Source: Seleniivibrio woodruffii
Lineage (GTDB): Bacteria > Chrysiogenota > Deferribacteres > Deferribacterales > Geovibrionaceae
DNA: 64,000 bases
Direction: 5' to 3'
Assembly (NCBI RefSeq): GCF_029267515.1
Contig: NZ_JAJUIS010000007.1
Coordinates: 1 to 64,000, forward strand
The position numbers and the translations under genes were made by a program. Positions 13,301-55,603 of the stretch are shown here, piece by piece. The notes beneath the pieces are model-generated. The model ran no database searches. It saw only the letters and a program-made list of their open reading frames with translations, and was not told the DNA's origin. The first letter of the stretch is position 1; every line of letters starts with the position of its first letter.

Positions 13301-13803
13301 AAGTCCAGAGATTCTGCCTAAGTCCTGTGAGCATGTCAAGAGCATGTGTCTAAATTAACCCTCCATTGCCTGAAAAGAGACACACGATTATCAGATATAT
13401 AGCTTCAGATAGACAGAAATAGCTAATCACAGATATTGCTGTTTATAATAGCGAGGCGGTGCAAAATAAGAAAAAAATATGGAGATGCGCACAAAAAAGG
13501 GATGAAAAAGAAAGGTTATAAAATGTATTTTTTGGTTTTATCAAGTGTGAATATTTGGATGATTTGATATCGGGATTCATTCGGTGTTTTTTGTTTTAAA
13601 TATCATTCAGACAAATTGTGCTGATTATATAGATGATTACAGCATGTTTTAGCTACCTGTGTGTAAAATTATTTTACATGTTTTGTGTAAAAATGTGTTA
13701 AAAACAACGTCAACTACCAGAGTTGATAGAGATTTTATTATGAAAATAATGTAGAATAATTTTGATATCATAGAATTTGAAAATATTATGTCTGGAGTCG
13801 TAT
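13301..13803. other. AT-rich divergent intergenic region
   Basis: About 500 bases between the glycosyltransferase (minus) and the RTX gene (plus). No credible gene. It is strikingly A+T rich, and contains a 17-bp palindrome at 13662-13678 and related TGTAAA-type half sites just downstream (for example 13686-13691). It must hold promoters for both flanking genes, but I could not fix -35/-10 boxes with confidence. Confidence 0.6.
13662..13678. promoter_or_regulatory. 17-bp palindromic operator candidate upstream of the RTX gene
   Basis: TGTAAAATTATTTTACA is a perfect inverted repeat (8-bp arms around one base), 126 bases before the RTX start codon. The same layout, TGTAAA-N5-TTTACA, recurs upstream of two nif-adjacent genes. 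Likely a binding site for a dimeric regulator; which one is unknown. Confidence 0.55.
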
Positions 13804-16800
13804 ATGAGCAATGTTACTTTATGGACAACAAATATCCATCCTACAGTGGTTCCTGGTGAATGGTCAGAGTGGTACTATGCTATAGAAGGATATTTTTACG
13901 GTGTTGCTGAATTTTACGAGAATCTGGGTGCAACAGTGGATACTTTGCCTGTGGGGCACCTTACAGAAACAACTCTGGACTCGACTAACTTATTGATTGT
14001 CATGTGTCCGACGGAAGACTTCACGGCAAGCGATATAACATATATGAAGGATTATCTGGCGACCGGAGGACGTATTGTTTTCTGGGCTGAAAACGACGCG
14101 TGGATTCCGCAAATCAACGGATACATCACCAATGCCATTGCAGCACTCGGCGGAAGTTTTTCTATAATGTCGGAAGATCACAACGATATAGACGGCGATT
14201 ATGTATTAAGCAGCAGCAATATATCATCTACATCCGAATTGGCAGAGGGAGTCGACGCTCTGTATTATAATGCTGCATCAAAGATTACGTATACGGGTGC
14301 TGTTGATGTAGTTGCAACAGGAGATGACGGTTCCGGATTTATAGTAGATCAGGCTGTAGACAAAGGAAGAATATTTCTTTTTACAGATGTGAATTTACTG
14401 TCCACTGTAGTCTCATCATACACTGACCTCGGGGCTTATCAGATTGCGGTTGAAGAGAACTGGGGCTTGCAGGCAACAATAGACAGTTATGCTGTTTATA
14501 ATGCTGATATGGACGTTCTTCTCGAGAACCTGCTGACAACATCCGAAGCTAATCAGGCTATAGTGACGGCAGGCGGAAACCCCAACGGGGGATTTGGCGG
14601 CAGCCCTTCCGCTGAAATATCAGCACCTGATTTTACCTTTATAAACGGAGAGAACTCATACTTCACATTCACGGTAAATTATAAGGTTGCAAGCGACAGC
14701 ACTGCGACTTTTACAAACGGACAGTTCGATTCCGGAGACTTAACCGTAAAGGATTCAGCAGATAACAGTTATACGGTTGCCCTTGATACAAGTGTTGGCG
14801 GGGGAACAGGAATAATCAGCGGTGCAGGAACCGGAGATGTGGTTGTTCAGTATAAAGTGACCGCACCGGACAGTACATGGGACACTGCTGACGCAGGCGC
14901 ATACACTATAGGAATCGTCAACGCTGCGGTTGAGGATACAGACGGCAAGCAGTTAGCGGGCGATTCGGCTGCGGCTGTTTTCGATATCGACATACTGGCA
15001 TCGCCCGTAATAACAGAATTTTCTTTTAACGTTACAAATACAAATACATACGCCCGCCCGTGGACACCAGGTGATCATACAAGCTCGGATGTGGACTGGT
15101 CCGCAACATGGTTCACTGACGACATCATCACAGCGAACAGTGCTCCGAACACACCTCAGTCGGATGATTCTTTCAACTATGTCACAGTTACTCTTGTCCC
15201 TGCTCTGTCGGGTAATTTTACAGCAACGGTGACAGGTGCCACAGGGCTGTATACAAATGATGGAACACAGAATGTCAGTGATACGCAGATTTGGATATAT
15301 AAAAATTCATTCGACCCTCTCAATCCCCTTGTCAATGTTCTCGCGGTGAATGAAGACATTGATTATCAGGATGCGGATGGAGTCACTGTCAACTGGCTTT
15401 CAGAGATAAAAAATGTAACTTTTGAAGCAGGTGAAACATATATTCTTGTTGTCACAACCTATACGGCAGGGACAACAGGTACCGTTGATTTTCAGATATC
15501 CGGTCCCTCTGTCGTTTCAGTCAGCGGTGACACAGTAACCGGTACCTCAATCGCCTCTGCGTCATATGATGCTTCAACAGGTACCCTCGTTGTCACTGGA
15601 ACAGGAATGAACATAGGCGACCCCATAGATGCCAGTGTTCTCACCATTACCGGAGAGGACGGAAACACATACACTCTTGCCGGTTCATATACAGTAACGG
15701 CATCAAGTGCAACTTCTTTCACTGTAGTTCTTGACGCCACCGACAAACTGAATGTCAACGGAATACTGAATAAGAACGGGACAGCCTCCGCGGATTCGAC
15801 AACTTTCAATCTTGCTGCGGGAGCAAACTGGGTGAGCGGTGCCGATGCCGATTCAACAGGTAACGGTATAACTGTTTCAAACGTTACTGCACCGACAATA
15901 ACTGAAACATCATATAACGCCTCCACAGGAGTCCTTACGGTTACGGCGACAAATCTGGTGCATCTGCCCGGAGCTGCAAATGATATTGACGCATCCGCTT
16001 TCACTTTTACAGGAGAGGGCGGGGCAACATACACTCTTACGAATACTTCTGATGTGGAGATCACCTCTTCAACATCTTTTACAATTACACTCAGCTCAAC
16101 TGACAAGGACGGCGTGGCTGACCTTATCACGGCAAACGGTACGTCTTCCGACGACAGTACGACCTACAATATCAGCGCATCGGATGACTGGAACGGTACG
16201 ATAACAGGCGGAAGCATTGCGGATGCAACGAGTTCTGTGACAGTCTCCGGTTTTTCCACTAACGATGCTGCTGTTTTGGACCTTAACGGCGCAACAGCCG
16301 GAACGGACAACACTGTTGCTCTTGCCGATGCGGCAGACGGACTTGCTCCCGATGTTGTCATAAGCGATACGGAGAACGATTCTGCCGGCTGGGACGGTTG
16401 CACTCTTACAATCCACAGAGTGGATTCAAACGGCGATGCCGACGGCAACGTTCATGACGTTTTCGGATTTGCATCCGGCAGCGGACTGACAGTTACAGGA
16501 AGCATAGCGGAAGGTGCGGATTCCAACGGAACACTTGCTTCCGGTGGAACAACTTTCGCAACATGGAGTTATTATTCATCCTCAGGCGAGCTTGTGCTCA
16601 GCTTCAATTCAGACGCAACAAGCGCACTGGTTCAGGCTGCCGCTGCGGCAGTAACATATACAAACGGCACTCCATACGGAGATGCAAAGATAGAATTTGC
16701 GCTTAACGACGGTGTTGCTGTCACAACTGCGGAAGTAACGGTAACAAGCACAGTCATACACGTTACCCAGACGGATTACGATACAGACGGCGACACTGCT

Positions 16801-19800
16801 GATGGAATGAGCCTTTACGAAGCGCTCGCCATTGCGAAGGATGGCGACACAATCCTTCTGGACGACGGAGTGTACAGAGGGCAGTTCAATATCACCAAGA
16901 ACGTGACCATTGACGCGGTGAACGGTGCAGACGGCAACGTTACCATCGAGTCGCCCGATTCAACTGATCTTGTTCAGGTTCTTCCCGACATGCTTACAAA
17001 CAACGGGCACTGGCGTATGCCCGTGCTTAACGTTGATACCGACGATCTCAGCGGAACAGTAACTATAAAGAACATAACCGTAGACGGTCGTGATCAGGGG
17101 CTTGCGGACGGTTTTGCCAACAATAAGGATCTGCTGGGAATAGGTATTGTTGACAGTAACGTTGTAATAGACGGTGTTACACTCACGAATTTCCGGTGTA
17201 CGGACAGCGGAGAATGGGGATGGGGCGAAAACTTCCCGATTATGGCGGAAGGAAGTGCAGGAGCGGGCGGAACAGTGAGCGTCAGCATCCTTAACTCTGA
17301 CATATCCAACTATCAGAAAACCGGTATAATCGGATGGGGACCGACTCTTGACATAACCATTGACGGAACCACCATCACAGGTTCCGGCGTCGCAGGCATC
17401 GCAGGTCAGAACGGTATCCAGATAGGTTCCGGCGGCGACCGCACAGGCACAACAGCCACAATAACAGACAACATCATACAAAATCTGGGATTCGACAGCG
17501 CTGACTACTCATCAAGCGGAGTTGTGCTTGTTTATGCAGACGATACCACAATAACAGGCAACTCAATCTCAGGTGTTACAGGCGGCGAAGGCAACCTTAA
17601 CGGTGTGGACATCATGAACGCCTATGACGGTGACACGGAAATAAATATTTCCGGCAACACCTTCACCGATGTTGACACTGCCATTGTCAACGAACCTGAC
17701 AACGCATATTCGCTCATAGTCGGTTCTAACGATTTCAGCGGAGCCACTGTTGCTTTCTATGACGCATACGACATATCTGATCCGGCTACCGAAACTCCCG
17801 TTGAAACCCCCACTGTGATAAATATAACAAGCTCTGAGGCTCCCGCATCCGGCGTCCTTTCATATTATATGTTCGGAGGCAACGATTCGTTCACGGATAA
17901 CGGAAGCGTGGATTCGACAGTTTACGGGGGAGCAGGCGATGATACTGTCACCACAGGCAGCGGTGACGACATAATTGCCGGCGGAACCGGTGACGACACC
18001 CTCACAGGCGGCGACGGCGAAGATGTGTTTATGTACCTGTCTCAGGAAATGAACTCCGACGGCGATCGTGTGATGTACAATGTGACAGATTTCGGTGCGG
18101 ATACCATTACGGATTTCACAACATCAGATGTGATCCGTGTTGCCGGTGCCGATTTCGATGACTATACTGCGGTTTCCGGAGACGGACTCAACGTTGCGGC
18201 AAACACTGTGGAGGTTGTTCAGACAGGCGGAAACACCACACTGTATATAGATACTGACGGTGTTGCCGGTGCCGATCTTCAGGTAGTTCTTGAGGGAACG
18301 TATACCTCCGAATCTTTTACATTCGACGGCACGGATATCGGGCTCGCTCCGAGCATCGGCATATCATCCGCTGCCTATAACGCTGCCACAGGCGTTCTTA
18401 CTGTGACAGGCTTCGGTCTGACGGTCGGGGATGTTATAGACGCATCAAAACTTTCCGTCACGGGAGAGGGAGGAAACAGCTACACCCTTGCCGGGACATA
18501 CACTGTGACGGCAACAGCGGACGGTTTCGCACTTACCCTTAACGAGGCGGATCAGCTTAACGTGGAGGGTATTCTCAACTCGAACGGAACATCCGCTGCC
18601 GGCGGCGCAACGTTCAACATAGCTGCTTCGGCGGGCTGGAACACAACGGCGTCAGCGGCTGCCGACACGACAGGCAATCCGGTGACAGTGAGCAGCCTTG
18701 CGGCTCCCGCTATAAGCGGCGTAACATATAATGCCGAAACAGGCGTTATAACCGTCACAGGATCCAACTTTGTTAAACAGTCCGGAGCGGCAAACGATAT
18801 CGACGTATCAAAATTCACGTTCACAGGTCAGGGCGGAAACGTGACCCTTTCAACAACATCCGACGTTGAAATATCTTCCGCAACGACCTTCACGATAACA
18901 CTGAGCAGTACTGACAAATCACTTGTCAACGCTGCTTTGGACAAGAACGGCACTGAGTCTTCGGGCGGAACTGTATATCACCTTTCCGCTGCCGACGATT
19001 GGAACGGACCTGTTACAGGTTCAAACACCGCTGACACCGCTAATGCCGTAACCGTCAGCAACGTTAAGGTTGTTGATACTGTGGACGGAGTTCCTGTGAC
19101 ATCGGAAACAGTCACGCAGACTCAGACATATACCGATCTGGACGGCAACACTGTCACCCGCGAGGTTGAAACTGAGACCATGACGGTTGCTCCTGTAACC
19201 GACACCAGAGTAAACGATACAGGCGCTACAAATACTGCTGAGATACCTCTTTTCTGGGGTGAAAGCTCAAGAACAGAGTGGGCGACGACAGCCAGTCTTC
19301 CTGTGGGTGTAGGCATAACGACAACAGGCACGCGTTCCCCTGTGGATGAAAGAACGCTGAACGACGCCATTGGCGACCTGCTGTTTTACATTGATTCCAC
19401 GGCATCATCAACGGATGCCGGCAGAACAGCGATGCTTTCAGGCGGTTCAGGCTTCCTTGAGTCAATAAGCGACTCTTCAAATACATTGGTTGTGAATAAA
19501 GTGACCCTGACAGTATCCGGAACAGATGTTCCGGCTGCACCGATAGTCATAAACGGAACTCCGAATACCGTTACATCGAGCGAAGGTGCAGCAACTCCGA
19601 AAGAGGCGATAGTTATTGATGCTTCCGCTCTTCCCGCCGGAACAGAGCTTGACCTTCAGAACATCGAATTTGCGGTCATAATCGGCAGCGGGGTCATAGT
19701 AAGGGGCGGTGACGGCGCTAACATCGTTTTTGCCGGAGAAGGTTCACAGAATATCCTTCTCGGTGCAGATGACGACGAATTGCACGCAGGCGCAGGAGAC

Positions 19801-20442
19801 GACGTTGTCGGCTCCCTTGCCGGCGACGACCTTATATACGGAGAGAGCGGCAACGACCGCATGTCCGGTGGTGCAGGCAAAGACTTCATGCACGGAGGCA
19901 GCGGAACGGATACCGTTGTTTATACAGGCAGCATGAGCGATTACATCATAACCCGCGACCACGGTCTGACCTATATCAGCCACGTTTCCGACCCGTCGGA
20001 TGTGGATACTCTGGTCAACGCGGAACAGGTTGAGTTCTCCGACGGCACTTACGAAGTTCAGAACAGTGAGGAACTGACGTTCATAGCCTCTCTCTATGAG
20101 CAGATCCTCGACAGACAGCCTGAGATAAACGGATTCCAGTACTGGTCGGATGCAGTGTTCGAGAAAGACCTTTCCGTGGGCGATATGACCGTATGGTTCA
20201 TGAAGTCAGCGGAATACCACGATGCTACAGGAGTGGACTTTGCGTCACTCACCGTTGAGGATCAGGTTGAACAGCTTTATGTCGCTCTGCTGGGCAGACC
20301 TTCCGATGCGGAGGGAAAAGCGTACTGGGTTGACTGTATCGAACAGGGACATACCATTGCAGAGGTTGCCGAAAGTTTCGTTACCTCCGTTGAGATGCAG
20401 GGAATTTACAATCTGCCCAACGAATGGGATTTTACAGCCTGA
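13804..20442 (+). CDS. Giant secreted RTX/DUF4214 protein, putative surface-layer-like protein
   Basis: 2212 residues from ATG 13804, seven bases after GGAG; an upstream TTG (13777) has no better site. There is no N-terminal signal peptide. Regions in order: a ThuA/GATase-like N-terminal domain (1-255); two diverged copies of a ~115-residue module with YDASTGTLVVTG-type motifs (about 580-815); a cadherin-like stretch (820-980); a right-handed beta-helix region (about 985-1330); RTX calcium repeats GGxGxDxxx (about 1370-1410); two more copies of the module (1515-1755); a second RTX block (about 1965-2035); and a DUF4214 domain (about 2090-2209). The acidic/hydrophobic C-terminus ends WDFTA, compatible with a type I secretion signal. 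A TolC/ATPase/HlyD set lies 5 kb downstream. It is probably exported and calcium-folded at the cell surface. S-layer, adhesin or enzyme are all possible. Confidence 0.85.
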   Translation: MSNVTLWTTNIHPTVVPGEWSEWYYAIEGYFYGVAEFYENLGATVDTLPVGHLTETTLDSTNLLIVMCPTEDFTASDITYMKDYLATGGRIVFWAENDAWIPQINGYITNAIAALGGSFSIMSEDHNDIDGDYVLSSSNISSTSELAEGVDALYYNAASKITYTGAVDVVATGDDGSGFIVDQAVDKGRIFLFTDVNLLSTVVSSYTDLGAYQIAVEENWGLQATIDSYAVYNADMDVLLENLLTTSEANQAIVTAGGNPNGGFGGSPSAEISAPDFTFINGENSYFTFTVNYKVASDSTATFTNGQFDSGDLTVKDSADNSYTVALDTSVGGGTGIISGAGTGDVVVQYKVTAPDSTWDTADAGAYTIGIVNAAVEDTDGKQLAGDSAAAVFDIDILASPVITEFSFNVTNTNTYARPWTPGDHTSSDVDWSATWFTDDIITANSAPNTPQSDDSFNYVTVTLVPALSGNFTATVTGATGLYTNDGTQNVSDTQIWIYKNSFDPLNPLVNVLAVNEDIDYQDADGVTVNWLSEIKNVTFEAGETYILVVTTYTAGTTGTVDFQISGPSVVSVSGDTVTGTSIASASYDASTGTLVVTGTGMNIGDPIDASVLTITGEDGNTYTLAGSYTVTASSATSFTVVLDATDKLNVNGILNKNGTASADSTTFNLAAGANWVSGADADSTGNGITVSNVTAPTITETSYNASTGVLTVTATNLVHLPGAANDIDASAFTFTGEGGATYTLTNTSDVEITSSTSFTITLSSTDKDGVADLITANGTSSDDSTTYNISASDDWNGTITGGSIADATSSVTVSGFSTNDAAVLDLNGATAGTDNTVALADAADGLAPDVVISDTENDSAGWDGCTLTIHRVDSNGDADGNVHDVFGFASGSGLTVTGSIAEGADSNGTLASGGTTFATWSYYSSSGELVLSFNSDATSALVQAAAAAVTYTNGTPYGDAKIEFALNDGVAVTTAEVTVTSTVIHVTQTDYDTDGDTADGMSLYEALAIAKDGDTILLDDGVYRGQFNITKNVTIDAVNGADGNVTIESPDSTDLVQVLPDMLTNNGHWRMPVLNVDTDDLSGTVTIKNITVDGRDQGLADGFANNKDLLGIGIVDSNVVIDGVTLTNFRCTDSGEWGWGENFPIMAEGSAGAGGTVSVSILNSDISNYQKTGIIGWGPTLDITIDGTTITGSGVAGIAGQNGIQIGSGGDRTGTTATITDNIIQNLGFDSADYSSSGVVLVYADDTTITGNSISGVTGGEGNLNGVDIMNAYDGDTEINISGNTFTDVDTAIVNEPDNAYSLIVGSNDFSGATVAFYDAYDISDPATETPVETPTVINITSSEAPASGVLSYYMFGGNDSFTDNGSVDSTVYGGAGDDTVTTGSGDDIIAGGTGDDTLTGGDGEDVFMYLSQEMNSDGDRVMYNVTDFGADTITDFTTSDVIRVAGADFDDYTAVSGDGLNVAANTVEVVQTGGNTTLYIDTDGVAGADLQVVLEGTYTSESFTFDGTDIGLAPSIGISSAAYNAATGVLTVTGFGLTVGDVIDASKLSVTGEGGNSYTLAGTYTVTATADGFALTLNEADQLNVEGILNSNGTSAAGGATFNIAASAGWNTTASAAADTTGNPVTVSSLAAPAISGVTYNAETGVITVTGSNFVKQSGAANDIDVSKFTFTGQGGNVTLSTTSDVEISSATTFTITLSSTDKSLVNAALDKNGTESSGGTVYHLSAADDWNGPVTGSNTADTANAVTVSNVKVVDTVDGVPVTSETVTQTQTYTDLDGNTVTREVETETMTVAPVTDTRVNDTGATNTAEIPLFWGESSRTEWATTASLPVGVGITTTGTRSPVDERTLNDAIGDLLFYIDSTASSTDAGRTAMLSGGSGFLESISDSSNTLVVNKVTLTVSGTDVPAAPIVINGTPNTVTSSEGAATPKEAIVIDASALPAGTELDLQNIEFAVIIGSGVIVRGGDGANIVFAGEGSQNILLGADDDELHAGAGDDVVGSLAGDDLIYGESGNDRMSGGAGKDFMHGGSGTDTVVYTGSMSDYIITRDHGLTYISHVSDPSDVDTLVNAEQVEFSDGTYEVQNSEELTFIASLYEQILDRQPEINGFQYWSDAVFEKDLSVGDMTVWFMKSAEYHDATGVDFASLTVEDQVEQLYVALLGRPSDAEGKAYWVDCIEQGHTIAEVAESFVTSVEMQGIYNLPNEWDFTA

Positions 20443-25357: not shown

Positions 25358-26658
25358 AAAGGTTGATTGCAGGTCTGGTTCTGCTGCCTGCTCTTTCCGC
25401 GGGGTTCGCTTTGGCGGACACGGGGATAAGGGAGGCGTATGACCGTGCCATTGAAAACGACAGCATACTTCAATCCGCAAGACACTATCAGAAGTCTGCG
25501 GAGGCGGTGCGTAAACAGACCAGAGCGGGGCTTCTGCCGAACGTTTCCGGTCAGTATACCGCCCTTAAATACGATACTGACAGATACGGGGATTACGACA
25601 CCAGAGAGCTTACTGTCAATCTTGTTCAGCCTGTTTTCGACCTTAACAGATACCGGCAGCACGAGCAGAGCAGATATACTCTGCAGTCCTCGGATGCGAA
25701 GCTGAAATCAGCCGAATCGAACCTGATTGTGAGGGTGGTCACGGCATACATGAACGTTCTGTATGCGAAGGATAACGTTGAGCTGATGAAGGCAAAGAAA
25801 CAGGGCGCCCAGGAACAGCTTGTTCAGGCGGAGAAGATGTTCAGATCAGGTCTTGTCGCAGTTACCAACGTGCACGAGGCACAGGCAAATCTGGATACCG
25901 CCGAATATGAGATCGTGAATGCGCAGAACGCTTATCTGAACAACATGGTGGAGCTTGAATCCATAACGGGAAAGATAGACGGTGTGCGCTGTCTTGGTTC
26001 GGGATTCGGTTATGCCTCCCACGAACTGGGCACACTCGACCACTGGATTGAAACCGCAGCACAGAACAGCAGCGAGGTTAAATATTACAAGGCTCAGAGC
26101 AAATATGCGGACGAAAACGTTAAAATCGCCAAAACGCAGTATATTCCTACACTTAACCTGATAGCCGCATACAGAAAATCGGATCAGGTGAGCAACATAA
26201 AAAGTACGGAAACGGTCTATAAAAGCCTCGGAGCGCAGGTTTCAGTACCGATATTCAGCGGCGGATACACAGCCGCAAAGGTAATGGAGAGCAAAGAACG
26301 GTTCTATCAGTCCGTAAGCGACATGAACACCGCCGTGAACGAGATGAAAAAGAACGTTTCCGAAAAATATACGGCTCTTCTGGGCAGCAAAGCAAAGATT
26401 ACAGCACTGGAAAGAACTTCCGCGTCCAACACACTGGCCTATGAGTCTAACAAAAAGAGTATGTCGGCTGGTGTCGTAACCCTTGTGGACGTTATAAACG
26501 CGCAAAACAACATGTTCGACAGTCTTTCACGGCTTTTGCAGGCGAAATATGAATATTTCACCGGATACATTGACCTTAAATACTATGCGGGGGTACTCAC
26601 CGCCGCAGACGTTGATTTTCTTGAAACTCTCGTAAATTCTGAATGTAAGGTGAACTGA
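25354..26658 (+). CDS. TolC-family outer-membrane export channel
   Basis: 434 residues. A signal peptide (MKRLIAGLVLLPALSAGFALA) is followed by two OEP repeats with coiled-coil helices; motifs such as NLVQPVFDLNRYRQHEQ and VSVPIFSGGYTAAKVMES are typical of TolC. It would form the trimeric tunnel of a type I secretion system with the next two genes. Start overlaps the glycosyltransferase stop (ATGA). Confidence 0.93.
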   Translation: MKRLIAGLVLLPALSAGFALADTGIREAYDRAIENDSILQSARHYQKSAEAVRKQTRAGLLPNVSGQYTALKYDTDRYGDYDTRELTVNLVQPVFDLNRYRQHEQSRYTLQSSDAKLKSAESNLIVRVVTAYMNVLYAKDNVELMKAKKQGAQEQLVQAEKMFRSGLVAVTNVHEAQANLDTAEYEIVNAQNAYLNNMVELESITGKIDGVRCLGSGFGYASHELGTLDHWIETAAQNSSEVKYYKAQSKYADENVKIAKTQYIPTLNLIAAYRKSDQVSNIKSTETVYKSLGAQVSVPIFSGGYTAAKVMESKERFYQSVSDMNTAVNEMKKNVSEKYTALLGSKAKITALERTSASNTLAYESNKKSMSAGVVTLVDVINAQNNMFDSLSRLLQAKYEYFTGYIDLKYYAGVLTAADVDFLETLVNSECKVN

Positions 26659-28394
26659 TGGACAATCAAAGGCGTATGCCGGGCGGGTTTTCCGCAGGCG
26701 AACTTAAAAAGATACTGATGAAATTCAAGCGGACGTTTATTGCGCTGGCAGGTTTCAGCTTTGTAATAAACATGCTGATGCTGGTGCCGTCAATCTATAT
26801 GCTCCAGATTTACGACCGCGTTCTCACCAGCCGCAATAAGGAGACCCTGCTTGTGATAACCCTTATCACGCTGTTCATGTTCGTTGTGCTGGCGGCGATG
26901 GAATGGGTGCGCTCCCAGATAATGATTGTCGCTGGAAACCGCATGGACGAGATGCTTTCGGGCAGAGCGTTTGCGGTAGCATTCGAAAATGCACTGAAAA
27001 GCGGGGCGGGTACGGCTTCGCAGGTGTTTCAGGACGTTACGGCAGTCCGCCAGTTCCTTACGGGACACGGACTTTTTGCGTTTCTGGATGCGCCCTGGTC
27101 GCCAATATATCTGATAGTTATTTATCTGCTGCATCCCGCGCTCGGTATCCTTGCTACGTGTGCGGCTATAGTGCTTATAATCTTTACTTTTATCACGGAA
27201 TACGTGAGCAGGAAACCAATTGAGGAGGCGAACGTCAACTTCCGCAAGGCTACCATGTTCGCCACTACGAACTTCCGCAACGCGGAGGTGATAGAGTCCA
27301 TGGGGATGCTTGAAAACGTGCGGAAACAATGGCTTCCCAAGCACCTTGCCTTTATGAAGCTGCAAAGTGTGGCGAGCGAACGTGCTTCCGGCATAAGCGC
27401 CATGACCCGTTTCGTCCGTATATCCGCACAGTCCATGGTATATGCCGTGGGTGCCTACTACGTTATAAATATGGATCTCACCGCAGGTTCCATGATAGCG
27501 GGTTCAATCCTTATGGGCAGGGCGCTTGCTCCCGTTGAGATGATTACCTCATCATGGAAGGGCTTTGTGTCAGCAAGAAACTCATACCGCAAGCTGGGAG
27601 AGCTTTTTGACGCTTTTCCTGAGGCGGAGGAGAAGATGAAGCTGCCCAGACCTGATGGAACCGTCGTTGCAAAAGGTGTTGTGGCGTCACCTCCCGGAGC
27701 GAATATCCAGATACTTAAAAACATCGGTTTCGAAACGAAGGCGGGGGAACTTGTGGCGGTGCTGGGACCCAGCGCATCGGGCAAATCCTCGCTGGCGCGG
27801 GTGCTTGTCGGCATATGGCGTCCGGTCATAGGCGATGTGCGGCTAGGCGGTGCAGATGTTTCAAAATGGGATAAGGGCGAGATGGGCAAATATATAGGGT
27901 ATCTGCCTCAGGATATTGAACTGCTTGAAGGGACTGTTGCGCAGAACATCGCCCGTTTCGGCGAGCTTGACCCCGATAAAATTGTTGCCGCTGCGAAGAT
28001 GGCCGGTGTGCACGATATGATTCTGGCACTGCCTGACGGCTATGAAACGTACATAGGCGAGGGCGGAACCGTGCTTTCCGGCGGACAGCGCCAGAGAATA
28101 GCTCTTGCCAGAGCGGTTTATGACGATCCGGTGCTTCTGGTTCTGGACGAGCCGAACTCAAACCTTGACGAACCAGGGGAACAGGCTCTTGTAGAGACTC
28201 TTAACAGACTGAAAGCACTTAAAAAGACCATCTTCGTCATTACCCACAGAACGCCTGTTCTGTCTGTTGCGGATAAAATAATGGTACTGAATAACGGCAC
28301 CATACAGATGTACGGACCCAAACAGGAGATTATGGATACCGTGCGCAACGGTATGCAGGCGAGATTACAGCAGACAAAACCAACAGCGGTTTAA
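26658..28394 (+). CDS. Type I secretion system permease/ATPase (PrtD-like)
   Basis: 578 residues: six-helix membrane domain (about 20-300), then an ABC domain with Walker A GPSASGKSS (about 370), signature LSGGQRQRIALARA and Walker B LLVLDEPNSNLD. There is no N-terminal C39-like domain, the usual form for exporters of RTX proteases and lipases. Its one-base overlap with the TolC gene indicates coupling. The likely substrate is the RTX protein at 13804-20442. Confidence 0.94.
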   Translation: MDNQRRMPGGFSAGELKKILMKFKRTFIALAGFSFVINMLMLVPSIYMLQIYDRVLTSRNKETLLVITLITLFMFVVLAAMEWVRSQIMIVAGNRMDEMLSGRAFAVAFENALKSGAGTASQVFQDVTAVRQFLTGHGLFAFLDAPWSPIYLIVIYLLHPALGILATCAAIVLIIFTFITEYVSRKPIEEANVNFRKATMFATTNFRNAEVIESMGMLENVRKQWLPKHLAFMKLQSVASERASGISAMTRFVRISAQSMVYAVGAYYVINMDLTAGSMIAGSILMGRALAPVEMITSSWKGFVSARNSYRKLGELFDAFPEAEEKMKLPRPDGTVVAKGVVASPPGANIQILKNIGFETKAGELVAVLGPSASGKSSLARVLVGIWRPVIGDVRLGGADVSKWDKGEMGKYIGYLPQDIELLEGTVAQNIARFGELDPDKIVAAAKMAGVHDMILALPDGYETYIGEGGTVLSGGQRQRIALARAVYDDPVLLVLDEPNSNLDEPGEQALVETLNRLKALKKTIFVITHRTPVLSVADKIMVLNNGTIQMYGPKQEIMDTVRNGMQARLQQTKPTAV

Positions 28395-28406: not shown

Positions 28407-29714
28407 ATGAATACAGATACGTCAATCAGAAAAGATTCGAAAAAATATATTTATATCGGACTTGCGGTACTTATTCTCGGACTCGGCTTTTTCGGTATAT
28501 GGGCCTTCACAGCTCCGCTGAGTCAGGGCGTTGTGGCACCCGGAACGCTGACATTCGTTGACAAGCGCAAGACAGTTCAGCATCTTTACGGCGGAACGGT
28601 TCAGGAAATCTCAGTTAAAGAGGGCAGCAGCGTTAAGGCTGGGCAGGTTCTAATTAAACTGGATGATTCCTCCACAAACGCGAAACTGAGCAGTGTCCGC
28701 TCGGAGTATTACACAAATCTCGCCCTTGAAGCCAGACTCAACGCGGAAAGGCTTGGGCGCGTATCGGTGGAATATCCGGAAATACTCAGAGACGCGGCAT
28801 CCGATCCCGAAGTCGCCGATATCTTGAGAACCCAGAACGACCTGTTCAGAAAACGCAGAGATTCCGTTATGAACGAGAAACGGATACTCATGAATCAGAA
28901 ACATGGCGTTATAGACTACGTCGCGCAGATGGAACAGCTCGCTGCATCCAGAAGAAAGCAGGTTGACCTGCTTGAAAAAGAGATCGATTCCGTAAAAACA
29001 ATTGCGGATGAGGGATATTACCCCAGAAACAAAATGATAGAGCTGCAGCAGAACCTGCAGGGCATAGAGGCGACAAGGAGCGAGGAACTGGCGACCATCG
29101 AGCGCACAAGACGAAACCTTTCAGAGCTTGACCTCAAAATTTTGCAGGTTGACAGCGAATTCAGCAAGGACGTTGAGTCCACCCTCACGGACGTTCAGAA
29201 ACGTATTGCCGGACTCAAAGAGGAGTACAACGCGGCGCTTGTCACCCATGAATCGATGATAATAAAAGCGCCTGAAGACGGCGTGGTCCTTGGACTTTCC
29301 GTGCATAATGCAGGGAGCGTAATCACTCCAGGTCAGAAGATTCTGGATATCGCGCCCATGCACGAGGCGCTTATAGTTCAGGCGGAGATTTCACCGCGCG
29401 ATATAGACTCAGTGAGGGCGGGGCTTCAGTCGGAAGTCCGCATATCCGCTCTGGACGTGCATAAGACGCCATCTCTTTTCGGCGAGGTTGTCATGGTCTC
29501 TCCCGACGTGTTCCTTGAGCAGAACTCAGGGCGCTCATACTATATCTGTCAGATACGCATCCCTGAAAAAGAGCTTGTTAAGATAGGCTCCGCAGACAGG
29601 CTGCAGGCTGGTATGCCAGCGGAAGTTATTATAGAGACAGGAGAAAGAACGTTCATGGAATATCTGCTGCGCCCGTTCTTCAACAGGTTTGCATTGTCCA
29701 TGAAAGAGCAGTAA
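28407..29714 (+). CDS. HlyD-family membrane fusion protein (PrtE-like)
   Basis: 435 residues. One N-terminal transmembrane helix (about 16-36, IYIGLAVLILGLGFFGIW) is followed by a lipoyl half-motif (TVQEISVKEGSSVKAGQVLIKLD), long coiled coils, and the second half-motif (IIKAPEDGVVLGLSVHNAGSVITPG). It bridges the inner-membrane ATPase to TolC in the periplasm. It ends 23 bases from the convergent nifA gene with no obvious terminator. Confidence 0.94.
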   Translation: MNTDTSIRKDSKKYIYIGLAVLILGLGFFGIWAFTAPLSQGVVAPGTLTFVDKRKTVQHLYGGTVQEISVKEGSSVKAGQVLIKLDDSSTNAKLSSVRSEYYTNLALEARLNAERLGRVSVEYPEILRDAASDPEVADILRTQNDLFRKRRDSVMNEKRILMNQKHGVIDYVAQMEQLAASRRKQVDLLEKEIDSVKTIADEGYYPRNKMIELQQNLQGIEATRSEELATIERTRRNLSELDLKILQVDSEFSKDVESTLTDVQKRIAGLKEEYNAALVTHESMIIKAPEDGVVLGLSVHNAGSVITPGQKILDIAPMHEALIVQAEISPRDIDSVRAGLQSEVRISALDVHKTPSLFGEVVMVSPDVFLEQNSGRSYYICQIRIPEKELVKIGSADRLQAGMPAEVIIETGERTFMEYLLRPFFNRFALSMKEQ

Positions 29715-31305: not shown

Positions 31306-31321
31306 AGCAATATATGTGCCA
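31306..31321 (-). promoter_or_regulatory. Sigma54 (-24/-12) promoter of nifA
   Basis: On the minus strand TGGCACATATATTGCT, a perfect match to TGGCAC-N5-TTGCW with GG-N10-GC. The expected transcription start, about 12 bases past the GC, falls within a base or two of the nifA ATG at 31294, so the mRNA would have essentially no leader. Confidence 0.8.
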
Positions 31322-31472: not shown

Positions 31473-31488
31473 CGGCACGGAGATTGCT
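31473..31488 (+). promoter_or_regulatory. Sigma54 (-24/-12) promoter of fdxB
   Basis: CGGCACGGAGATTGCT: GG at 31474-31475, ten bases, GC at 31486-31487. One mismatch to consensus. It lies 46 bases upstream of the fdxB ATG. I found no TGT-N10-ACA site between the nifA and fdxB promoters. Confidence 0.78.
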
Positions 31489-32245: not shown

Positions 32246-32421
32246 AGGATGGAGCAATTCTGTATCAGTAATAGGTCAGGGTTTCAGGATGAAACCCGTT
32301 CAGGAGGATTTCGGAGCTTTGCTTTGAAATCAGACGGAACGTGAGAGAGGCTTGGCTTTGCCAAGACGAACGTTGACAAAATTGTCCAAGGATGGAGCAA
32401 TTTTGTATCAGTAATAGGTCA
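32246..32421. repeat. 33-bp direct repeat pair flanking a stem-loop element (family B)
   Basis: 32246-32278 and 32389-32421 are identical but for one base (both contain AGGATGGAGCAATT and GTATCAGTAATAGGTCA). The second copy includes the last codons and stop of draT. Between them is a stem-loop stretch with GGGTTTC AGGAT GAAACCC (32279-32297), ACGTGAG, GGCTTTGCC and an ACAAAATTG/CAATTTTGT hairpin, an order also found at 53631-53712. Confidence 0.65.
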
Positions 32422-33232
32422 CATTTGTATCGTACCGCCCGCCGAGGACAAGATATTCTTTCTCCCCGACGAAGCTGAGGTTCGGCAGAACCTCTGAAAA
32501 GAAAACTATCTTTGTATAAGGTATTTCAGACGTCAGGATGTAATCGCCGAACTGAGACGCAATGTCCCTGTCGGATGTGAATGAAACGAGGGAGTTTTGT
32601 TCAATACAGAGTCTCGTCCTGTCATATTCCTTCACCACAAGGTGCTCCGACAGGTCGTTGACGCCTCTGTAAAGCGTGATTTTCGGCAGTTTATCTTTAT
32701 AGAAAGTCTCAAGTATACACTGGGTATAGGTGTAGAGGAGATCGAGCTGATGGAAGATAAGGTTTTTGTTATGTTTACTGTCCATCTTCTCAACCATGTA
32801 TCCGTAGTATTCCTCGCTGTTGACATCGGGGATAATTTCCTTGTGAAAGAAAGGCATTATGCCGAACCGGCTTTCCACCCATCCTTTCATAACGGCGCCT
32901 TCTATGCTGTTGGAATCGAAGAGCCATCCTTTCAGAAGTCTGGTATAGCTGCCCATCTTCTTTCCGTTGTATTTTTCGGAAAGCGAGAAGAGGGTGTCCA
33001 TGGCGTTTGCAAAAACTTTGGCGGCATTTTCAATTGTATCAGCCTGTTTGATGGAATTAAAAATGTCGGCATAATATTCCCATACGCCGCTGATGGTGAT
33101 GGGAAGCACTTTCAGGTTATATTCGCTGCTTACGAACATATATGTCGGGATATTGATGAGGTTGGAGTAATGGTAAAACCTCTTCAGATCCTTCAGACGG
33201 GATATGCTGCTTTTCTGTTTTTCTACACCCAT
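32408..33232 (-). CDS. draT: NAD+-dinitrogen-reductase ADP-D-ribosyltransferase
   Basis: 274 residues. DraT transfers ADP-ribose from NAD+ to one arginine of NifH, switching nitrogenase off under ammonium or energy stress. An R-S-E type active site is visible: TLYRGVNDL (Arg), LVSFTSDRDIA (STS-like) and EKEYLVLGG (Glu). Its target Arg101 is conserved in NifH at 36121. It is divergent from draG with only 35 bases between start codons. The stop lies inside a repeat. Confidence 0.93.
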   Translation of the reverse strand: MGVEKQKSSISRLKDLKRFYHYSNLINIPTYMFVSSEYNLKVLPITISGVWEYYADIFNSIKQADTIENAAKVFANAMDTLFSLSEKYNGKKMGSYTRLLKGWLFDSNSIEGAVMKGWVESRFGIMPFFHKEIIPDVNSEEYYGYMVEKMDSKHNKNLIFHQLDLLYTYTQCILETFYKDKLPKITLYRGVNDLSEHLVVKEYDRTRLCIEQNSLVSFTSDRDIASQFGDYILTSEIPYTKIVFFSEVLPNLSFVGEKEYLVLGGRYDTNVTYY

Positions 33233-33267
33233 GATAATGAAATAGATGAAATCCTCAGAGTTTGCAA

Positions 33268-34161
33268 ATGAAAAATGAACTCCTCAGAAGAGCGCTCGGA
33301 AGTTATCTGGGATTTGCCGTAGGCGATGCGCTGGGTGCCACGACGGAGTTCATGAACCCGCGGGAGATAAAGGAGCAGTACGGTGTTCATAACAGGATAA
33401 TAGGGGGCGGATGGCTGAAACTGCGCGCTGGAAGGGTTACGGATGACACGGAAATGGCGCTGGCGCTTGGCAGCAGTATTATAGAGCAGAAGGGGTTTCT
33501 GCTGAAAGCGGCTGCCGACAATTTTGTGAACTGGATGAAGTCCAAACCTGTGGATATCGGTTCGACTGTGCGCCGCGGACTGAGGGATTATGTTACGCTG
33601 GGCAGAACCGAATCGCCATATTCAGAGCAGTCCGCCGGAAACGGCGCCGCAATGCGCAATCTGCCTGTGGTGCTGTACTGTCTCAAGGACTGGTCAAAAT
33701 TTGAATATATGTCCCTCGCACAGGGGCGGCTGACTCATAACAACGAACATTCCGACCGGATAACCCTTGTTTTCGGGGAGATGGTGCGTGAGATATTCTC
33801 CAGCGGAGATAAGCTGAAAGTGCTTGAGATCGGCAACAGGCTTATCAGGGAATACCCGAAATATTCATATTCCAACTATAAGGGCGAGTGTTCCGGTTAC
33901 GTTATAGATACTTTCAAAACGGTGATGCACTTTTTTGCAGAGGGCGAATATTTTGAAGATACTATGGTGAACACCGTTAATCAGGGCGGGGACGCAGACA
34001 CCAACGGCGCGATAGTCGGTATGCTTGCCGGAGCGATGTATGGTGTTAATAATATTCCTTCGAAATGGCTTAGAAAACTGGATACAAAGGTTGTTGATGC
34101 TGTTTCCGAACAGACGGGCAGGCTTTTGAATCTGGAAGTGAGGGTGCACGATGAGATTTGA
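33268..34161 (+). CDS. draG: ADP-ribosyl-dinitrogen reductase hydrolase
   Basis: 297 residues from ATG 33268 (a TTG six bases upstream is in frame). DraG removes ADP-ribose from NifH and restores activity. Two-metal (usually Mn) binding motifs are present: GDALGATTEF, TDDTEMALAL and QGGDADTNGAIVG. It overlaps the macro-domain gene by 11 bases. Confidence 0.94.
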   Translation: MKNELLRRALGSYLGFAVGDALGATTEFMNPREIKEQYGVHNRIIGGGWLKLRAGRVTDDTEMALALGSSIIEQKGFLLKAAADNFVNWMKSKPVDIGSTVRRGLRDYVTLGRTESPYSEQSAGNGAAMRNLPVVLYCLKDWSKFEYMSLAQGRLTHNNEHSDRITLVFGEMVREIFSSGDKLKVLEIGNRLIREYPKYSYSNYKGECSGYVIDTFKTVMHFFAEGEYFEDTMVNTVNQGGDADTNGAIVGMLAGAMYGVNNIPSKWLRKLDTKVVDAVSEQTGRLLNLEVRVHDEI

Positions 34162-34579
34162 AACGGGCGATCTCCTTGATCATGTGGGTAAGGATCCTGT
34201 GGTTATAACCACAAACGGTACTGTCAGAAAGAACGGAAAGGCGAATCTGGGTTCCGGCAATGCGAAACAGGTCGGAGAGGTTCTGCCGTGGCTGGATGAA
34301 AAGCTGGGGTATCTCGTAGACCAGTTCGGCAACCATGTGCATCATCTGGATAATATGATAGTCAGCTTTCCTGTGGAGCATAGCTGGCAGGAAAGGGCGG
34401 ATCTGGGTCTGGTGAAGCGTTCTGCGATTGAGCTTGTGATGCTTGTTGATCAGATTGGATGGGACAATGTATATATGCCGCTGCCGGGCTGCGGCAAAGG
34501 TGGCTTGCGTCCTTCGGATGTGATATCCATTCTGGCTCCGATACTTGATACAAGGTTCATTGTTCTGAATAAAGAATAG
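34151..34579 (+). CDS. Macro-domain (ADP-ribose-binding) protein coupled to draG
   Basis: 142 residues, a single domain. It matches the macro-domain pattern: VVITTNGTVRKNGKANLGSGNAKQV near the N-terminus, MIVSFPVEHSWQERADLGLVKRSA in the middle and PLPGCGKGGL near the end, the ligand-binding glycine loop. Macro domains bind or hydrolyse ADP-ribose and its derivatives. The gene starts inside draG, so its product likely acts on ADP-ribose released by, or on proteins modified by, DraT/DraG. The exact reaction is unknown. Confidence 0.82.
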   Translation: MRFETGDLLDHVGKDPVVITTNGTVRKNGKANLGSGNAKQVGEVLPWLDEKLGYLVDQFGNHVHHLDNMIVSFPVEHSWQERADLGLVKRSAIELVMLVDQIGWDNVYMPLPGCGKGGLRPSDVISILAPILDTRFIVLNKE

Positions 34580-34607: not shown

Positions 34608-35054
34608 TCATTTAAGACTGCTCACCGCTATTGTGTTATTTGATTCGATTGATGTGAAGCGGTGCATGTCCGGTATCATAAGATTTGTTACATTCCCTTC
34701 TTTGTGCTCAACGGCGATAGCTGCGCTGACGTTTACTCCGCCGGTGATGGTCTTTCCGTCTCTTGTGACAATTTTCACAACTTTCATGGGTGTTCCGTTT
34801 GCCGCTGTAAAAAACTCACCTTCAACATTCTGAATGGATCTGATGTCTGAAACGGGAACTTTGAACTGCGCGCCGTCACTTTTTATAAGCAGGACGCTTT
34901 TGTTGAGAGCCACTGAAGCTATTTTCGCCTCATAAACCTTGCCGGATTTCCCGACCGCCTTGATATTGTCCCCGACATCAAAGGCATCCGCTGTCTGAAC
35001 TGCCATTGCGACAGCGAAAATCATGATAAGGCAGTGTGTCTTCTTGTGTATCAT
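34608..35054 (-). CDS. Secreted protein of unknown function, paralogue 1
   Basis: 148 residues; I do not recognise the family. It has a signal peptide (hydrophobic stretch to about residue 24, cleavage near ADA-FD), then a mature part with VGDNIKAVGKSGKVYEAKI, a DIRSIQNVEGEFF segment and the ending HRFTSIESNNTIAVSSLK. No cysteine in the mature part and no membrane anchor, so probably periplasmic. The next gene upstream (35247-35696) is a clear paralogue. GGAGGT is six bases before the ATG. Confidence 0.85.
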   Translation of the reverse strand: MIHKKTHCLIMIFAVAMAVQTADAFDVGDNIKAVGKSGKVYEAKIASVALNKSVLLIKSDGAQFKVPVSDIRSIQNVEGEFFTAANGTPMKVVKIVTRDGKTITGGVNVSAAIAVEHKEGNVTNLMIPDMHRFTSIESNNTIAVSSLK

Positions 35055-35246: not shown

Positions 35247-35696
35247 TTATTTAAGGCTGCTTACAGCCATAGGTTCCTCTTCGATTTTGATTGATGAGAA
35301 ACGGTGTACGTCGGGTATCATAAGGTTAGTAACGCTGCCTCTTGTATTTTCAACAGCCAGCGCCGCGCTGACAGCTATGCCGCCTAAAACTGCCTGACCG
35401 TCTCTTGTCGTAATTTTGACCACTTTGAGCTTTGTGCCGTTCTCCGCGGTGAAATATTCGCCCTCAACATTCTCCACAGAACGTACTTTTGCAAGGGGCA
35501 TCTGGAATCTACACCCCTCTTTGCTGATGAAAAGAATGGTCTTGTTCTTTGCCATTCCGGATATTCTTCCCTCATAATCTTTTCCTGATTTTCCCACCGC
35601 TTTAACTTTTATTCCCATCTCAAAGGCCTTTGCATAGGGGATTACAGCGGTAATAAAGAATAAAACCAGAGAAGTGGACAGTAAAACATTAATCAT
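35247..35696 (-). CDS. Secreted protein of unknown function, paralogue 2
   Basis: 149 residues; signal peptide to about residue 24 (cleavage near AKA-FE). It aligns along its whole length with the 34608-35054 product: VKAVGKSGKDYEGRI, KVRSVENVEGEYFTAENGT, NLMIPDVHRFSSI and the identical tail AVSSLK. Strong AGGAGGT before the ATG. It is divergent from nifH, and its leader contains an inverted repeat (CTACCAA ... TTGGTAG, 35713-35748). Function unknown; the position next to nifH suggests a link to diazotrophy. Confidence 0.85.
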   Translation of the reverse strand: MINVLLSTSLVLFFITAVIPYAKAFEMGIKVKAVGKSGKDYEGRISGMAKNKTILFISKEGCRFQMPLAKVRSVENVEGEYFTAENGTKLKVVKITTRDGQAVLGGIAVSAALAVENTRGSVTNLMIPDVHRFSSIKIEEEPMAVSSLK

Positions 35697-36065: not shown

Positions 36066-36081
36066 TGGCATGACTGATGCT
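36066..36081 (+). promoter_or_regulatory. Sigma54 (-24/-12) promoter of the nifHDK operon
   Basis: TGGCATGACTGATGCT: GG at 36067-36068, ten bases, GC at 36079-36080. Two departures from consensus. Leader of roughly 30 bases to the nifH ATG, with ACAGGAGG in it. Confidence 0.8.
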
Positions 36082-36090
36082 ACATAATAG

Positions 36091-36990
<900 letters not shown>

Positions 36991-55401: not shown

Positions 55402-55417
55402 AGCAACGGACGTGCCA
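55402..55417 (-). promoter_or_regulatory. Sigma54 (-24/-12) promoter of nifB
   Basis: Minus-strand TGGCACGTCCGTTGCT, a perfect consensus match. Predicted start about 55391, leaving a very short leader before the ATG at 55378. Confidence 0.85.
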
Positions 55418-55587: not shown

Positions 55588-55603
55588 TGGCACACCTTTT
55601 GCA
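55588..55603 (+). promoter_or_regulatory. Sigma54 (-24/-12) promoter of nifV
   Basis: TGGCACACCTTTTGCA: GG at 55589-55590, ten bases, GC at 55601-55602; consensus match. AAGGGAGG precedes the nifV ATG 25 bases on. Confidence 0.85.

Follow-up and report, generated by a model that had tools for sequence, protein, structure and literature searches.

The window, meaning the whole 64,000-nucleotide stretch of DNA analyzed here, contains a divergent draT and draG pair and, upstream of nifH, a small open reading frame (ORF) that we refer to as the macro gene. The macro gene begins with an ATG at 34151, before draG has ended (TGA at 34161). The features on which the analysis turns are the following:

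32408–33232, − strand: draT, 274 aa, encoding dinitrogenase reductase ADP-ribosyltransferase and oriented away from draG (PF07357, 306 bits)
33233–33267, no strand: 35-bp gap from the draT start codon to the draG start codon
33268–34161, + strand: draG, ADP-ribosyl-[dinitrogen reductase] hydrolase, 297 aa (TIGR02662, 377 bits; motifs)
34151–34161, + strand: 11-bp overlap between the ends of draG (3′) and macro (5′), on one strand in two frames
34151–34579, + strand: gene for a 142-aa macrodomain of the ALC1/DarG-like class (ORF, AlphaFold2 model, Foldseek and profile matches)
34376–34378, + strand: Glu76 codon, aligned with the catalytic lysine of DarG (K80) and TARG1 (K84) (alignments)
34487–34507, + strand: GCGKGGL phosphate-binding loop, residues 113–119, with Gly117 at the position of TARG1 Asp125 (invariant columns and TARG1 alignment)
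36121–36990, + strand: nifH, presumed DraT/DraG substrate, with the target Arg101 present (similarity)

The draG product is a genuine DraG, scoring above the TIGR02662 cut-off (377 versus 337 bits), matching the solved A. brasilense DraG in the Protein Data Bank (PDB) at 2e-88 and conserving the TDDTE and NQGGDADT motifs. DraT and DraG are encoded together with a nifH that carries the target arginine, as befits a DraT/DraG switch. Family searches identified ferredoxin, NifZ, NifE, NifN, NifB and NifV, along with a NifA-like sigma-54 activator containing GAF, AAA+ and Fis domains; judged by its gene content, the region around the macro gene is a nif cluster. Because the macro ORF shows strong purifying selection (dN/dS of 0.03–0.14 at dS of ~1 among five same-genus copies) and has matches in 16 of 51 genomes of a phylum-level set of Deferribacterota and relatives (14 full-length and two partial K-type), we regard it as a real gene.

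DraT/DraG is the textbook example of reversible bacterial ADP-ribosylation and has been viewed as a pair of enzymes with PII/AmtB signalling. The window shares the writer and eraser families and the NifH arginine with the Rhodospirillum and Azospirillum systems (draTG, draTGB) but differs from them in the divergence of draT from draG. The extra gene of the Azospirillum draTG operon is draB/nifO, encoding a NifO/ArsC-like protein (PMC5249018). This agrees with the earlier note made on this DNA, and DraB is unrelated to the macrodomain: the 142-residue protein is modelled with a macro fold instead of the ArsC/thioredoxin-like fold of the DraB/NifO type.

Fold and family of the 142-residue protein

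Domain search alone did not settle the fold. The Pfam Macro model (PF01661) scores 12.5 bits, under its gathering cut-off of 22, and reaches an E value of 0.01 for only 20 of 60 family members. The DarG models of NCBIfam and PADLOC cover part of the protein at ~4e-6, and DarG is matched at 0.01 or better by all 60 members; the full-length NCBIfam DarG equivalog gives 26.3 bits against a cut-off of 250. PHROG_335 matches the protein at 3e-16. The decision came from profile, model and fold searches. Compared with the PDB, the family profile matches DarTG (7omu, 4e-9), DarG (5m3i, 1e-8) and TARG1 (6e-7). An AlphaFold2 model built from a 60-sequence alignment has a pLDDT of 95.1 and a pTM of 0.90, and its best Foldseek match in the PDB is the Thermus aquaticus DarG macrodomain with ADP-ribose (5m3e, TM score of 0.81), followed by M. 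tuberculosis DarG and TARG1.

On the strength of these profile matches, the model and the fold matches, we assign the protein to the ALC1-like class of macrodomains. The PF01661 shortfall is a limit of that model's reach, as fold and profile both support membership in the superfamily. The earlier note had described a 142-residue gene starting inside draG with an 11-base overlap and had read ITTNGTVRKNG, SFPVEHSW and PLPGCGKGGL as macrodomain marks; the coordinates are as it gave them, the motifs are present in the ORF, and the macro identity is borne out by profile, structural model and fold match. The pocket loops are conserved in the family, with invariant GCGKGGL columns in the 60-row alignment (A2), and the pocket is predicted to be kept and to bind ADP-ribose. 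Because the family does not reach the Pfam and NCBIfam cut-offs, its members in Geobacter-like diazotrophs probably carry a hypothetical-protein annotation.

The DarG antitoxin macrodomain (T. aquaticus 5m3e, M. tuberculosis 5m3i) is the closest known counterpart, with the best fold match, the best family-model match, conserved pocket loops and a genetic pairing with an ADP-ribosyltransferase locus. The window protein differs in having glutamate at the Lys80 position, in having draT, draG and nif genes as neighbors and no DarT, and in missing the DarG C-terminal region (142 aa versus 338 model positions). An identity as part of a DarTG toxin–antitoxin system was rejected, given that DarT, the catalytic lysine and the C-terminal region are all missing.

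Association with DraT and DraG across genomes

Within the phylum-level set, an E-type macro gene occurs in 14 of 51 genomes, and DraG scores over its cut-off in all 14; among the remaining 37, 33 also have no DraG over the cut-off. The draG–macro tandem is found in all eight genomes of the two nearest genera, with DraG 61–95% identical. The same association holds in the Desulfuromonadia, in which 117 of 244 sampled genomes carry the macro gene, always as a single copy. DraG is present in 110 of the 117 macro-positive and 74 of the 127 macro-negative genomes (Fisher p ~1e-11, uncorrected for phylogeny), and the DraT counts are nearly equal to those of DraG (Fisher ~1e-11, likewise uncorrected for phylogeny). 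The macro gene is nonetheless optional, because 74 of 184 DraG-positive Desulfuromonadia do not have it.

DraG or DraT is found in 114 of the 117 Desulfuromonadia carriers. The other three have neither over threshold, although in one of them (G222, L088) the contig ends within a DraG that lies next to the macro gene. DraG matches were also obtained in seven of the seven genomes with outlying macro members that were tested, one match being split and below the cut-off. Beyond Deferribacterota, Chrysiogenota, Desulfuromonadia and a few Myxococcota-labelled genomes, the view of the distribution comes from the best 80 of 114 scan loci, none of which has a record named as alphaproteobacterial. The case for a role of the macro gene in the DraT/DraG pathway is strong. 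In the Anaeromyxobacter genome G295 (L046), which carries the macro gene, the DraG match at C55:5286–6144 falls into two parts that lie in different open frames, and this may be a split gene, a pseudogene or a sequencing error.

The spacing of the two genes varies. Among the matches listed, 60 draG–macro pairs share a contig: 26 are separated by no more than 1.6 kb (16 tandem, eight divergent and two fused), 14 by 3.6–6.4 kb and 12 by 7–23 kb, and eight are far apart. The macro gene is also next to draG in Trichlorobacter thiogenes (L037). Arrangements vary from clade to clade and include the overlapping tandem of the window, the order draT–draG–two small genes–macro, a divergent draG/macro pair with ~58 bp between the genes and a nifV-containing block. 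The two small genes immediately precede the macro gene in many Desulfuromonadia (L061, 5474–5707 and 5723–6013; also L093 and L069). The first encodes ~78 aa with an HTH-like start and a Cys/Gly-rich tail, and the second ~96 aa; searches of Pfam and NCBIfam at 1e-4 gave no match for either, and no clear relative of the two (c9, c6) was found in the window. They may belong to the same regulatory unit as the macro gene.

In three genomes, Desulfuromusa BB21 (L082/L121), G275 (L117) and G140 (L118), DraG and the macrodomain form a single ORF of 443–445 aa, directly 3′ of draT, in the order DraG, a linker of roughly ten residues and macrodomain. Because the fused proteins form one clade (support 100/99), the fusion probably arose once and persisted. 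We modelled the fused protein with AlphaFold2 to ask whether the macro pocket faces DraG; the model has two well-formed domains (pLDDT of 90), with a pTM of 0.77 that leaves their mutual arrangement unfixed.

These arrangements bear on whether the macro gene is just a passenger of nif clusters, acquired from mobile DNA and acting on a target unrelated to nitrogenase. Its nearest outgroup proteins do occur in phages and plasmids, and some macro copies lie far from draG. Set against the near-constant company of DraG or DraT in carriers, the several separate draG–macro arrangements, the fusion and the strong purifying selection on the macro gene, we consider a passenger role very improbable. The equal co-occurrence with writer and eraser would also suit a brake, in which the macrodomain binds ADP-ribosylated NifH or DraG and shields the tag, so that nitrogenase stays off until released by a nitrogen or energy signal, as a local alternative to sequestration of DraG at the membrane. 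Sequestration of DraG is an established form of regulation in R. rubrum (PMC6067124). Fusion to DraG better fits promotion or tuning, although an autoinhibited form like that of ALC1 is possible, and we regard a brake as improbable.

The core idea of the earlier note, that nitrogenase control includes a third ADP-ribose protein, is supported by the fold, by a pairing with draG that recurs across phyla and by the fusions. We found no earlier report of a macrodomain in draTG or nif loci in the open-access literature, and no nitrogenase-linked macrodomain appears in those parts of a survey of virus ADP-ribose systems that mention DraT/DraG and many phage macro domains. The macro gene accompanies the switch in more than 100 bacterial species and is sometimes fused to draG, which suggests that this classic two-enzyme system has a third part not described before.

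The lysine-to-glutamate change and candidate functions

In our alignments, the column of the catalytic lysine of DarG (K80) and TARG1 (K84) is occupied by Glu76 in the window protein. Glutamate is found in this column in 59 of the 60 rows of A2, the exception being an alanine (L095), and lysine in all nine phage and plasmid relatives. Because the pattern used in the first genome scan contained FPVE and could bias this count, we recounted on loci obtained by profile or protein search. All 65 nif-lineage sequences found without patterns have Glu76; the only two lysine sequences, a plasmid protein (L015) and L016, are weak matches from genomes of other families. The TARG1-type Lys/Asp dyad is absent altogether, with Lys84 and Asp125 replaced by Glu76 and Gly117, although human TARG1 (OARD1), an ALC1-like hydrolase, shares the fold and class (TM score of 0.77) and the GCG phosphate loop.

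A phylogenetic tree separates the glutamate group (74 rows) from the lysine group (nine rows) with support of 100/96; the nif-lineage family is one tree group with a diagnostic Lys-to-Glu change. The phage and plasmid proteins of PHROG_335 are the closest full-length relatives outside the nif lineage (35–43% identity) but fall in the separate group, and most of them do not have Gly118. A phage origin of the glutamate group is not supported, given this separate placement and a scan of viral contigs, with patterns favoring the E-type, that found no relative; transfer may have run in either direction. The large-phage relatives (L129–L136, phage and plasmid records) are labelled ‘phosphatase’, and all of those examined retain the DarG-type lysine; such lysine-bearing proteins may be active ADP-ribosyl hydrolases.

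The mutation K80A abolishes the hydrolase activity of DarG (PMC9967889), and the Lys-to-Glu change argues against an eraser of the TARG1/DarG type and in favor of a reader or adaptor. Loss of the lysine is not proof of lost catalysis, because SCO6735 of Streptomyces (5e3b), likewise a stand-alone bacterial ALC1-like macrodomain without the Lys/Asp dyad, cleaves Glu-linked ADP-ribose and requires Gln85 at the same position (PMC5087735). SCO6735 differs in having Gln and Ala at the dyad sites rather than Glu and Gly, its profile match is weak (E value of 0.03), and no link to nitrogen fixation has been reported for it. By analogy, the window protein might be an eraser with an altered mechanism, with Glu76 or a bound water acting, that backs up DraG on the NifH arginine or clears by-products of DraT, for example adducts on acidic residues. 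Glu76 is nearly invariant, as a catalytic residue would be, and the nearest solved folds are hydrolases. The replaced residue is, however, the one whose mutation kills DarG; arginine-linked ADP-ribose is removed by ARH/DraG enzymes and not by the characterized human macrodomains (PMC10789625); and DraG is intact, adjacent and even fused. On balance, we find an altered eraser unlikely.

A sink for free ADP-ribose, or for a derivative such as ADP-ribose-1′′-phosphate, released by DraG would limit product inhibition or glycation damage. Co-location or fusion with DraG would place the macrodomain at the source of free ADP-ribose, the pocket loops are conserved, and among the phage relatives the annotations read phosphatase or ADP-ribose-binding protein. 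Conversely, a stoichiometric binder would suit a catalytic product poorly, the recurrent neighbors identified include no Nudix-type partner, and a sink by itself leaves the Lys-to-Glu change unexplained. We hold a sink to be doubtful, more so than an altered eraser.

The reading we prefer is that a stand-alone macrodomain of the ALC1/DarG class was recruited to DraT/DraG, where it works with DraG and recognizes modified NifH as its reader or adaptor, and we consider this reading evenly balanced between right and wrong. The macrodomain would keep its ADP-ribose pocket without the lysine chemistry of DarG and TARG1, would bind ADP-ribosyl-Arg101 of NifH and would bring DraG to the modified Fe protein or tune the timing of reactivation; speculatively, Glu76 may face the distal ribose side and pair with the arginine guanidinium. 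We prefer a reader because an intact DraG is at hand, sometimes in the same chain, so that no substitute eraser is needed here, because the characterized human macrodomains spare arginine-linked ADP-ribose and because macrodomains without catalysis can serve as readers (PMC10789625). Several points speak against a reader: the gene is optional and sometimes far from draG, SCO6735 is catalytic with a residue other than lysine, the model of the fused protein leaves the domain arrangement unfixed, and L095 has alanine in the E76 column. Of the three functions that the earlier note had offered without ranking, the reader is thus favored by the Lys-to-Glu change, back-up erasure of the TARG1/DarG type is disfavored, and altered erasure and disposal of free ADP-ribose stand as rivals.

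More specifically, and somewhat more tentatively, we propose that in Deferribacterota and Desulfuromonadia the macrodomain is a dedicated third component that traded its catalytic lysine for glutamate, reads ADP-ribosyl-arginine on NifH and steers or gates DraG, a version that we rate a little short of an even chance. If true, this would be a prokaryotic writer–reader–eraser triad in which reader and eraser are one protein in some species. A lysine-less protein of the ADP-ribose type would add a reader layer to DraT/DraG and offer a handle on how DraG finds the modified Fe protein.

Other features of the window

Sigma-54 type sites at 31306–31321 (−), 31473–31488 (+), 36066–36081 (+), 55402–55417 (−) and 55588–55603 (+) precede the nifA-like gene, the ferredoxin gene, nifH, nifB and nifV, with the total of such matches across the window not above chance; none was found between draT and draG. 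A 33-nt direct repeat (32246–32278 and 32389–32421, 97% identical) has no third copy in the genome. The copy at 32389–32421 covers the last codons of draT, so that the one at 32246–32278 resembles a duplication of the 3′ end of this gene.

Between the macro gene and nifH lie two tandem paralogues, at 34608–35054 (−) and 35247–35696 (−), of 148 and 149 aa and ~54% identity. Both have a hydrophobic N terminus suggesting export and are present in several same-genus genomes; the one tested had no NCBIfam match at 1e-20. Farther upstream, a 2,221-aa ORF (13777–20442) lies a few genes before a PrtD-type ABC exporter and an HlyD-type adaptor (26658–28394 and 28407–29714), and its product is likely a giant protein secreted by a type I system beside the nif cluster.
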